Below are positions 18,123 to 22,334 of a stretch of DNA of 39,488 nt, in pieces. The DNA lies in the NCBI GenBank assembly GCA_947625805.1, contig CANQPT010000015.1, forward strand, positions 1 through 39,488, in the 5' to 3' direction. Under the pieces are notes generated by a model. That model saw nothing but the letters and a program-made list of their open reading frames with translations, was not told the DNA's origin and ran no database searches. Both the position numbers and the translations under genes were made by a program. Source of the stretch: an uncultured Clostridia bacterium (GTDB lineage Bacteria; Bacillota; Clostridia; Oscillospirales; CAG-272). Within the stretch, counting starts at the first letter, position 1. Each line of letters starts with the position of its first letter.

Positions 18123-19745
18123 CTACTCGACCGAAATGATATAGTGATAGAGCGGCTGACCGCCCGGAATGCTCACAAGTTCGCAGAGAGGATCCAACTT
18201 GCACCGCAGAATCTGCTCGGCTCTCTGCGCATCTTCTTCGGACACGTCCTCGCCGTAGAACAGGGTCACCATGGACGCATCTCCGATCCGATCGGCAAGG
18301 GCGCCGATACATTCAAAATCATCGTCCGCCACGCAGGCGATCTTGCTCTCGGCAAGGCCGAGCACCGCGCCCGAGGGAATGGTCTGCTCACCGATTACCG
18401 AATCCCGTACGGCGTAGGTCACCGAAAAGGTACGCACTGCCGCTAATGCCTCGGTCATCGCAGTTTGGTTGGTATCCGCATCCGCGCTCTCATCAAAGGC
18501 CATCAGAGCGCTGATGCCTTGGGGCACGCTCTTGGAGGCGATGACCACCACCCGTTTGTCTGTGACCATCTCCTCCGCCTGTTTTGCCGCCATATAGATA
18601 TTTTTGTTGTTGGGAAACAAGAACACGGTTTCGGCGCCTACCTGCCTGATCGCATGCACCAGATCCTCGGTCGAGGGGTTCATGGTCTGGCCGCCAAAGA
18701 CCACGCGGTCCACGCCCAGATCCTCAAAGCAGGCCTTTATCCCCTCTCCCATGCAGACTGCCACCAATCCATAGGGCTTTGCAGGCTCGGTCGGGGTGAT
18801 CTGCTCGACAAGGGTGGTATGCTGATGGCGCATATTCTCTACTTTTACCGTGTACAGCGAACCGTATCTGATGGCCTCGGACAGTACCTTGCCCGGGTTT
18901 TCGGTGTGCACGTGCAGTTTGACCATATCGGCACTCTCGATAAAGACCACGCTGTCGCCCATGCCCATAATGGTTTTATGCAGTTTTCCGCACTTTTCTT
19001 CACCGAAATAGTGGTCGCTCTTGGTCACGATACACTCTGTGCAGTAAGGGTACTTGATATCGCCGGTATCGAAAGCGGAAAAGTCTGCGGCTCCCGGGGC
19101 GGAAACCGTATTCCCGGCATTTGCCTGCACGGGAGTTCCCTCAAGGCTGGCCAGCATTCCCTGCAGAATGGTCACAAAGCCCTGTCCGCCGGAGTCCACC
19201 ACCTGCGCTTGTTTGAGCACGGGGAGCATATCCGGGGTTTTGGCAAGGGTGTCTACGGCCACCGACAAGAGATACCGGAAGAAACCGATCGGATCCTCCC
19301 GATAGGTAGACTCGGCCGTAGCCGTCGCCTGCTCGGCGCAGACGCGCATGACTGTCAGAATCGTGCCCTCCGTGGGGGTCATGACCGCCTTATACGCCTC
19401 CTCGGTACCGCGGGTCATGGCGGCCGCCAGGTCCACTGCGTCCGCCTCTTCCTTGCCCAGCAAACTCTTTGCAAAACCGCGGAAAAAGACCGACAAAATA
19501 ACGCCCGAGTTGCCGCGCGCACCGCGCAACATGATATTGCCGAGTTTGGCCGCACACTCGGACAGCGTGCCGTCAAAGTCTTTCAGTTCGGTCCGGCATT
19601 CGCTCATGGTAAGACACATATTGATACCCGTATCTCCGTCCGGCACCGGAAAGACGTTCAAATTATTGATTTCTTCCTTATGGTTATCCAGCGCGTTGGC
19701 GGCACTGATCGCCATGTCACGGAAAATTCTGCCGTTGATTTTCAT
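18123..19745 (-). CDS. fakA: Fatty acid kinase FakA (DAK1/DegV-linked, YloV family)
   Basis: FakA phosphorylates fatty acids held by FakB in the cytoplasm. The N-terminal DAK2-type nucleotide-binding domain is recognisable in NLNVFPVPDGDTGINMCLTM (metal/ATP-binding DGDTG) and GARGNSGVILS, followed by a middle domain with YCTECIVTKSDHYFGEEKCGKL and a C-terminal DegV-binding domain (VFLFPNNKNIYMAAKQAEEM). The length, 540 residues, is normal. An AGGAGA SD lies six bases before the ATG. It heads the fakA-fakB operon, with its own TTGTAA-17-TAAAAT promoter, downstream of the terminator of a separate small RNA. Confidence 0.93.
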   Translation of the reverse strand: MKINGRIFRDMAISAANALDNHKEEINNLNVFPVPDGDTGINMCLTMSECRTELKDFDGTLSECAAKLGNIMLRGARGNSGVILSVFFRGFAKSLLGKEEADAVDLAAAMTRGTEEAYKAVMTPTEGTILTVMRVCAEQATATAESTYREDPIGFFRYLLSVAVDTLAKTPDMLPVLKQAQVVDSGGQGFVTILQGMLASLEGTPVQANAGNTVSAPGAADFSAFDTGDIKYPYCTECIVTKSDHYFGEEKCGKLHKTIMGMGDSVVFIESADMVKLHVHTENPGKVLSEAIRYGSLYTVKVENMRHQHTTLVEQITPTEPAKPYGLVAVCMGEGIKACFEDLGVDRVVFGGQTMNPSTEDLVHAIRQVGAETVFLFPNNKNIYMAAKQAEEMVTDKRVVVIASKSVPQGISALMAFDESADADTNQTAMTEALAAVRTFSVTYAVRDSVIGEQTIPSGAVLGLAESKIACVADDDFECIGALADRIGDASMVTLFYGEDVSEEDAQRAEQILRCKLDPLCELVSIPGGQPLYHYIISVE

Positions 19746-19816: not shown

Positions 19817-19845
19817 ATTTTACTATATTTTCTCCTATTTTACAA
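19817..19845 (-). promoter_or_regulatory. SigA-type promoter of fakA-fakB
   Basis: TTGTAA and TAAAAT are 17 bp apart on the minus strand, in an AT-rich tract between the small-RNA terminator and fakA. The predicted start is about 65 bases before the fakA ATG. Confidence 0.65.
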
Positions 19846-19854
19846 TACATTCCC

Positions 19855-20037
19855 GCAAAAAAGTGAAAGGACATGCACACAGGGGATGTGTATGTCCTTT
19901 CGTCGGCGGTTATTCTTCTGAACCGGGTTGGAAAAAATGAGAAAAAACACCCGGGGTATACGAACCGACCAGCGGCCGTCAGCAGAACAACGGAAAGCGG
20001 TAGCTAATCGCTTTCCCGGCCAACCTGATTGGCCGCA
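19855..20037 (-). ncRNA. Candidate structured non-coding RNA, ~180 nt, own promoter and terminator
   Basis: A consensus promoter begins a minus-strand transcript near 20037. The RNA has a hairpin GGCCAA/TTGGCC, a second hairpin GGAAAGCG/CGCTTTCC, and a 13-bp long-range stem (GUUGUUCUGCUGA with UCAGAAGAAUAAC, one mismatch). That stem encloses CGGCC/GGUCG and CCGGGU/ACCCGG hairpins; the last has a U-rich loop. It ends in a 14-bp terminator and TTTTTT (19857-19901). There is no ORF with an SD inside. I tested it mentally against 6S, SRP, RNase P, tmRNA, T-box and the common riboswitches and found no match. It could be a standalone sRNA, or a leader if transcripts read through to fakA; the separate fakA promoter favours the former. 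Confidence 0.55.
19857..19901 (-). terminator. Intrinsic terminator of the candidate ncRNA
   Basis: GAAAGGACATACAC pairs with its complement (one G-U) around a short loop, and TTTTTT follows one dinucleotide later on the minus strand. Confidence 0.85.
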
Positions 20038-20042
20038 TACTT

Positions 20043-20071
20043 ATCTTACCATTAAAAAAACGGTTTGTCAA
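20043..20071 (-). promoter_or_regulatory. SigA-type promoter of the candidate ncRNA
   Basis: TTGACA and TAAGAT are separated by 17 bp on the minus strand, with no protein-coding start within 290 bases downstream. Confidence 0.8.
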
Positions 20072-20151: not shown

Positions 20152-20180
20152 TTGACCGAATGTTGAAAATGCGATACAAT
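20152..20180 (+). promoter_or_regulatory. SigA-type promoter of pgeF, starting at its ATG
   Basis: TTGACC and TACAAT are 17 bp apart. The -10 box ends at 20180, so transcription should begin within a base or two of the ATG at 20187. No SD exists in the short space between. Confidence 0.7.
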
Positions 20181-20186
20181 AAGAAT

Positions 20187-20990
20187 ATGAAGACTTATTC
20201 CTGTATAGATGATTTCACGTTTCAAAGCAAAAAGGGCGTCGTGTACGCCGCCTCTCGGTCGATCACGGCAAAGCACGGTTTTTCCACCCGCAAGGGCGGC
20301 GTATCGGCGCTTGCCCACACCGCTTGGCTCAACCTCGCCCTCGGGCGCGGAGACGATGAGGCAACGGTGAAAGAAAACCTTCGCCTGTTCTGTGAGGCGA
20401 TCGGCGCGGACCCCTCCACCGTAGTCAGCGCACATCAGATCCATTCGAGCCGTGTGCTCACGGTAAGCGCGCAGGACGCGGGCACAAGCGATCGTCAGGC
20501 AGACGGATTCGTGACCGCCCAAGCGGGAGTCACGCTGTGTGTCAAGGTTGCCGACTGCGTACCGATTTTGTTCTGCGACAGCACCCACCATGTGATCGGC
20601 GCCTGCCACGCCGGGTGGCGTGGCACCGCCGCCGGAATCGCGCCGGTCACGGTCGGACGTATGCTCTCCTTAGGCGCAGGACGGGAATCGATCCGGGTCG
20701 CCATCGGCGCATGCATCCACCCCTGCTGCTATCAGGTAGGCGAGGATTTCGTGCGTGAGGTGGCCGCCCTGCGGGGCAAGTCCTTCGCACAACGATATAT
20801 CACGGCTAAGAACGGCGGCCTTTGGGCTGATCTTCCCGCCATGAACGTCGCACTGTTGCAGGACGCGGGCATCGCGGAAGAGCAGATCAGCGTTTGCGAC
20901 AGATGCACCTGCTGCCGGCCGGACCTGTTTTTCTCCCATCGGGCCACCGGCGGCCTGCGCGGCACCATGGCCGCCATGATCTGTTTGTGA
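20187..20990 (+). CDS. pgeF: Peptidoglycan editing factor PgeF (YfiH/YlmD, Cu-oxidase_4 family)
   Basis: PgeF-family proteins hydrolyse UDP-MurNAc with misincorporated L-serine and, as YlmD/LACC1-like enzymes, also act on purine nucleosides. Family blocks are HGFSTRKGGVS, the metal-site histidine in SAHQIHSSRV, VKVADCVPILF and CHAGWRGT, and the C-terminal CDRCTCCRPDLFFSHRATGGLRG. Length from ATG 20187 is 267 residues, right for the family. The track's earlier start at 20121 would run through the promoter. The candidate start shows no SD, and the mRNA appears leaderless. It converges on the ECF S-component gene with only five bases between stop codons and no visible terminator. Confidence 0.92.
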   Translation: MKTYSCIDDFTFQSKKGVVYAASRSITAKHGFSTRKGGVSALAHTAWLNLALGRGDDEATVKENLRLFCEAIGADPSTVVSAHQIHSSRVLTVSAQDAGTSDRQADGFVTAQAGVTLCVKVADCVPILFCDSTHHVIGACHAGWRGTAAGIAPVTVGRMLSLGAGRESIRVAIGACIHPCCYQVGEDFVREVAALRGKSFAQRYITAKNGGLWADLPAMNVALLQDAGIAEEQISVCDRCTCCRPDLFFSHRATGGLRGTMAAMICL

Positions 20991-20995
20991 GTCAT

Positions 20996-21511
20996 TCAGC
21001 GGTTCCCGTTTTCCAAGCGCAGCAGTAAATTTGAGAGCGGCAGTACCAGTGTGCAGACGACGGCATTGCTGATGCAGTGGGTAACGTCAAAGGGCAGTCC
21101 GCTCATGATCCACGCGGGAAGCGCACGGAGCGGAAGATGAAAGAGCACCATCTGCGACGGCGCCCACATGGCGCCGAATGCAAGGCCGTGCAGCGCCCCG
21201 ATGACGCAATAAAGCGGCCCTGACAAGCGCGGATCCAGATTTTTCGGCACCGGCATGGCAATCGCCCAAAGCACCGCCCAAATATACAGATAGGGGATCC
21301 ACCAGAGTGAAAAGCCCTGATACAGTCCCTCCAGAAAGACATACACGTAGAGCGGGATCAGCGCCTGTACGCGGTAGACCCGCGTACAGACAATGATAAA
21401 CAGCGCCAGCAGATGAACGTTGGGAAGCCCCTTCATCGCCCATGTGGAGGCAAACATCAGCGAGCCCAGCATGGCAAAGACGATCAGCCTCCGCACAGAC
21501 AAATTTTTCAT
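20996..21511 (-). CDS. ECF transporter S component, probable corrinoid importer subunit (CbrT-like)
   Basis: The 171-residue protein has about six hydrophobic segments (LIVFAMLGSLMFASTWAMKGLPNVHLLALFIIV opens it) in the pattern of energy-coupling-factor substrate-binding S components. The near-N-terminal helix carries the small-residue AMLGSLMFAS stretch expected to contact the EcfT subunit. Its ATG overlaps the stop of the DUF4430 gene by four bases (ATGA), so the two are coupled. The transcript starts behind a cobalamin-type riboswitch, so a cobalamin or precursor substrate is the best inference. The protein itself does not show its ligand. The EcfA and EcfT subunits are not in the window and are probably shared. 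Confidence 0.75.
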   Translation of the reverse strand: MKNLSVRRLIVFAMLGSLMFASTWAMKGLPNVHLLALFIIVCTRVYRVQALIPLYVYVFLEGLYQGFSLWWIPYLYIWAVLWAIAMPVPKNLDPRLSGPLYCVIGALHGLAFGAMWAPSQMVLFHLPLRALPAWIMSGLPFDVTHCISNAVVCTLVLPLSNLLLRLENGNR

Positions 21512-21927
21512 TCCGCCTTGAGTTGGTAGGAAGCGCCGTCCTCAAGGGCAAGCGAATCCGCTCCCACCGTCGCGTATTCGCCGTTTACATACAGCGCCCA
21601 ATATTTGCCGTCGGTTTCGTAGTCGAGGGTTTCTCCGTCCACGGTTTTGATGTAAAGCCCGAATTCGCCCTCATCTCCCGCGATGATACCCTTGTCCTGT
21701 AAATAAGCGCCGAGGGTGACCTCTCCCTCAAAGGTGTAATCGTTGGTTACCTCCGTGCCGTCTGCGTGGGTGATCTTCAAAGTGAAAGAAGCGCTTTGCT
21801 GTTGTTGCTGTGAGAGATCGGTCGGGTTGCTGTTTTCATCGGCCTTTTCCGCCGTGCAGGCGCCGAGCAGTACCACACAGCACAAGAGCAGTGCCGCAAA
21901 TAATCTTGTCCATACTTGATTTTTCAT
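21508..21927 (-). CDS. DUF4430 lipoprotein, probable cobalamin-binding surface protein
   Basis: The signal peptide ends with LLGAC (lipidated cysteine, residue 24). A Gln/Ser-rich linker precedes one DUF4430 domain (residues ~45-139), a fold related to the C-terminal domain of transcobalamin/intrinsic factor. Visible motifs are VTLGAYLQDKGIIAGDEGEFGLYIKTVDGETLDYETDGKYWALYVNGEYA and the closing LEDGASYQLKAE. Such domains cap bound cobalamin in the vertebrate carriers, so a corrinoid-capturing role before hand-off to the S component fits the operon and its riboswitch. CGGAGG precedes the ATG. The binding claim is inference from fold and context. Confidence 0.85.
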   Translation of the reverse strand: MKNQVWTRLFAALLLCCVVLLGACTAEKADENSNPTDLSQQQQQSASFTLKITHADGTEVTNDYTFEGEVTLGAYLQDKGIIAGDEGEFGLYIKTVDGETLDYETDGKYWALYVNGEYATVGADSLALEDGASYQLKAE

Positions 21928-22059: not shown

Positions 22060-22130
22060 AGCGGCGATATCTACACAGAAACGGGGAAGATACCAACCAC
22101 ACGCTTGGCGCCATAACTGTGTGAAAGCTG

Positions 22131-22334
22131 AAAATACGGCGGGTTCTGACTTATGATCATACGGCGCACAAAGCCGCAAGAGTACCACCCTTCGGATACT
22201 CCCAATATGTCAAATACAGGAATGGCGGTTGTTCCGGATTCGAACCGGATCCCTTTTGGGAAACGATGATTCAAGCGATACATTGGACCATTACTTCCTC
22301 TTTACTCAGTGTACAACTTTTCAAACCGTATTTT
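22131..22334 (-). promoter_or_regulatory. Cobalamin riboswitch aptamer (divergent member)
   Basis: The minus-strand transcript is closed by a perfect 9-bp P1 (AAAATACGG with CCGTATTTT), 204 bases end to end, typical for the class. Inside, the order of conserved blocks matches: a GGTCC near the 5' side, AAAAGGGATCCGGTTCGAATCCGG (consensus AAaaGGGAAnnCGGUGnaAAUCCG), CAACCGCC...CCTGTA (consensus CaGCCCCCGCnaCUGUA) and AAGTCAGAACCCGCC (B12 box aGyCaGgAgACCkGCC). Two consensus positions differ (GGTT for GGTG, and a shortened B12 box). The tRNA T-loop-like TTCGAATCC is explained by this motif. It controls the DUF4430/ECF operon by the terminator just downstream. Confidence 0.75.

Follow-up and report, generated by a model that had tools for sequence, protein, structure and literature searches.

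Does the transcription unit between pgeF and fakA represent an RNA gene in its own right, or is it the leader of the gene that follows it? In the window, by which we mean the whole 39,488-nucleotide stretch of DNA analyzed here, the unit is encoded on the minus strand in the intergenic gap between the divergent neighbor pgeF (20187..20990, plus strand, TIGR00726) and a downstream gene of the fakA/yloV type (18123..19745, minus strand, TIGR03599 YloV, with FakA-like domains). No gene was found on the strand opposite the RNA unit. The start of fakA is 112 nt past the terminator of the unit, and since both are on the same strand, readthrough into fakA is possible. The initial annotation had proposed an independent structured RNA gene of ∼180 nt that belongs to no known class, and our Rfam, 6S, and antiterminator tests favor that proposal. 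We consider it probable that the locus is a free-standing small RNA (sRNA) gene with its own promoter and terminator, independent of fakA, species-restricted in the present data and predicted to act in trans.

The promoter claimed for the unit, TTGACA-17-TAAGAT, was located at 20071..20043 on the minus strand, an orientation left implicit in the initial annotation; it is near consensus with 10/12 matches, and carries a TG before the -10 element. A TTGACAAACCG-type promoter sequence also precedes tRNA genes in related genomes, and we therefore regard the RNA promoter as strong and of the housekeeping type. Transcription is expected from the sequence to start near 20037. The terminator (19857..19901, minus strand) is as strong as had been claimed, with a 15-bp stem and a UCCCC loop followed by ACUUUUUU, at -18.6 to -19.8 kcal/mol; its hairpin spans 19901..19865 and is followed by ACTTTTTT down to 19857. 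The distance from promoter to terminator is ∼175 nt, and the predicted RNA (19857..20037, minus strand) is ∼181 to 182 nt long. We infer that the unit is transcribed, in which case the housekeeping-type promoter would make an ∼180-nt RNA ending at its own terminator, upstream of fakA.

We found no convincing open reading frame (ORF) in the unit, in agreement with the initial annotation, and the longest complete ORF within it has 14 codons. A possible leaderless ORF of 11 codons, MRPIRLAGKAI, was read from the sequence on the minus strand (20003..20038, with the ATG at 20038 and the stop ending at 20003). It has no Shine-Dalgarno sequence and would be transcribed only if transcription started at or upstream of 20038, an arrangement that we regard as doubtful.

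The predicted fold of the whole RNA has an energy of -71.4 kcal/mol, compared to an average of -48.6 kcal/mol for 1000 dinucleotide shuffles, and is better than all of them (z = -5.79), as expected of the structured RNA that had been claimed, and without the terminator the RNA body still gives a z of -3.25, with 4 of 1000 shuffles as good. Most of this folding signal comes from the terminator and two perfect 8-bp hairpins at the 5' end, P1 (CGGCCAAUCAGGUUGGCCG, 20017..20035, minus strand) and P2 (GGAAAGCG-AUUAGCUAC-CGCUUUCC, 19992..20016, minus strand, with pair probabilities near 1.0); P1 and P2 by themselves reach a z of -4.1 against shuffles. The long-range stem that had been described as 13 bp is present in the predicted fold as P3 (19909..19991, minus strand), enclosing three small helices, although its strands, 19991..19979 and 19921..19909, form 12 pairs with one mismatch. 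The P3 region alone beats shuffles weakly (z = -2.2, 26 of 1000 as good), so the long stem is the weakest part of the case. Inside P3, the helix P3c bears a 20-nt U-rich loop (19948..19929). The 9-nt loop of P2, AUUAGCUAC, contains the palindrome UAGCUA, through which the RNA could dimerize; since ∼6% of 9-nt loops would contain a 6-nt palindrome by chance (4 positions × 1/64), we treat this only as a lead. It seems very unlikely that the RNA represents a previously undescribed structured class, characterized by a multibranched P3 and a UAGCUA loop that could form a kissing dimer and seen so far in one lineage because near relatives are unsampled.

The absence of a recognizable RNA class, also claimed earlier, held in our searches: no match to the RNA unit was obtained with Rfam at gathering thresholds, and the three matches listed in a permissive search (E up to 10) were all at chance level and unrelated, leaving no credible family. 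The known class named beforehand as an example of a match that would overturn the claim was 6S RNA (RF00013), which the unit resembles in its length of ∼180 to 190 nt and its housekeeping-type promoter. Size and promoter thus loosely fit a highly diverged known RNA such as a second 6S, a reading that we hold to be extremely improbable. The RNA unit gave no RF00013 match at E ≤ 10, and the genome already has a normal 6S RNA, a separate gene on contig C20 that scores 60 bits. The fold of 6S RNA is a rod with a central bubble, whereas the RNA described here has a branched fold of several hairpins. An identification of the unit as 6S was rejected.

The position of the unit directly upstream of fakA, on the same strand, and the presence of an intrinsic terminator at the end of its folded domain are features shared with terminator-type riboswitch and T-box leaders. 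The RNA could accordingly be a cis-acting leader of fakA, either a new riboswitch or a peptide-coded attenuator, in which P3 or the 11-codon ORF would control the terminator and fakA would be expressed by readthrough. Attenuation of this kind was assessed by asking whether the 5' arm of the terminator finds a competing partner in the upstream body, in comparison with 500 shuffled bodies. One weak upstream alternative exists, UGUUCU of the 5' strand of P3 with AGGACA of the terminator arm; as long as the terminator is incomplete, the two folds have almost the same energy (-53.0 versus -51.6), a point in favor of a leader. The arm gains 1.4 kcal/mol by upstream pairing, whereas shuffled bodies average 4.4 kcal/mol and 475 of the 500 (95%) give an equal or higher gain; no antiterminator pairing beyond chance was thus found for this arm, a result that speaks against control of fakA by an attenuator or riboswitch. 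In these folding models the terminator looks insulated from the RNA body. Unlike the known leaders, the RNA has neither an Rfam match nor a T-box sequence, its coupling between terminator and body is within chance, and it is not conserved upstream of fakA. The separate fakA promoter that had been proposed does have a candidate, TTGTAA-17-TAAAAT (19845..19817, minus strand), but it is weak, with 9/12 consensus matches. Given its candidate promoter and a start 112 nt beyond the terminator, fakA is unlikely to be controlled by this RNA as its leader, and the comparison with related genomes points the same way.

Searches for relatives of the RNA were negative throughout the several hundred genomes covered, which came from the family, the order, and the class and included congeners. 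BLAST against 97 relatives returned only the promoter, the T-run, and other short chance matches, and the promoter matches that we inspected were ordinary promoters, for example, of tRNAs; at an E value of 0.001, BLAST of 391 genomes of the class gave no convincing relative. A covariance model built from this single sequence (R1) found none in 146 relatives, in 395 family genomes, or in 37 genomes searched with laxer filters, sets that overlap. The best foreign matches of the family search (E of 0.1 to 0.8) were taken as chance, and the three checked for ORFs fell inside coding genes. Collections of phages, plasmids, and viruses gave no match, and a syntenic search found no counterpart upstream of fakA, degV, or pgeF in congeners. 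FakA relatives are present in 42 of 59 family genomes, yet neither the R1 searches nor congener synteny revealed a conserved aptamer upstream of homologous fakA genes, as a leader of that gene might be expected to show. Because no homolog was found, neither the covariation that the initial annotation had called for nor any trace of selection was seen in the RNA. The congeners compared share ∼71 to 74% amino acid identity in FakA, and with a one-sequence model at this distance, fast divergence is indistinguishable from a recent origin of the RNA.

In congeners G001 to G003, two degV genes flank fakA (degV-fakA-degV), and in G001 and G002 pgeF is on another contig than fakA. The RNA therefore occupies a lineage-specific junction. 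In G001 and G002, a T-box-like sequence was seen by eye upstream of the first degV, on the other strand. The junction, together with the lack of relatives in any searched genome, would fit a transcription unit that is decayed or incidental, a remnant of the rearrangement by which pgeF came to adjoin fakA, with an RNA that has no function. We judge this quite unlikely, since drift would be expected before long to erode the combination of near-consensus promoter, two perfect 8-bp hairpins, and 15-bp terminator.

An independent sRNA gene is thus the reading that we prefer. The bona fide sRNAs of Staphylococcus aureus are defined by their own promoter and terminator and by lack of overlap; the majority are confined to that species, and the UCCC motif has been tabulated for them (PMC5826253). 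As a sequence prediction, the unit between pgeF and fakA has the same attributes, with its own promoter, its own terminator, and no overlap. It further resembles the S. aureus Rsa/Spr sRNAs (PMC5826253), which have their own promoters and intrinsic terminators, in being intergenic and within ∼100 to 250 nt, in having no convincing ORF, in being species-restricted, and in exposing UCCC in a loop, a likeness of predicted organization for which no sequence relation was seen. By analogy with the majority of such Gram-positive sRNAs, the RNA would act in trans, and the most probable mode would be antisense, in which an exposed loop (UCCCC of the terminator, the U-rich loop of P3c, or the UAGCUA loop of P2) would pair with mRNA near translation starts.

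Pairing by two of these loops was assessed. A GGAAAAAAUGAGAAAAAA-like start site can pair with the U-rich loop, yet over 1038 start regions this loop reached -12 kcal/mol in 46, compared to a mean of 66 for shuffled loops, and we rejected it as an anti-start-site element. UCCCC as an anti-Shine-Dalgarno seed was likewise rejected, GGGGA not being enriched in ribosome-binding regions. As both pairing tests were negative, the trans-acting mechanism and any mRNA target are putative. If expressed, the RNA would be one more orphan regulatory RNA in a clostridial lineage that has received little study, and its own promoter and terminator and lack of overlap would make the locus a clean candidate for deletion without polar effects; by itself, it leaves the general picture unchanged.

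We also surveyed ∼1.22 of the 1.87 Mb of the same genome (G000) for intergenic units combining a 10/12 promoter with a terminator. Such units are rare, occurring at 14 distinct places; about half are tRNAs or known leaders (a T-box and the probable cobalamin riboswitch described below), and a handful, including the RNA before fakA, have no Rfam match. One of them, L206 14530-14707 on contig C8, is a free-standing unit with a TTGACA-17-TATAAT promoter, no ORF, and no Rfam match. The intergenic units L217 12635-12796, L247 19700-19837, and L233 10416..10314 have no match at Rfam gathering thresholds, although the start of the L217 unit resembles by eye a yybP-ykoY leader.

Within the window, a cobalamin riboswitch candidate at 22307..22121 (minus strand) falls below threshold at 27.7 bits (cutoff, 31.5; E of 3e-5). 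The genes that follow it encode a DUF4430 lipoprotein (21927..21508) and a small protein predicted to lie in the membrane (21511..20996), and the locus may be an operon for vitamin B12 uptake. The promoter of pgeF (20152-20192) places its -10 element only ∼6 nt before the ATG, and the same is seen in two congeners (L193 and L192); with the -10 element so near the start codon, the pgeF mRNA may be leaderless.
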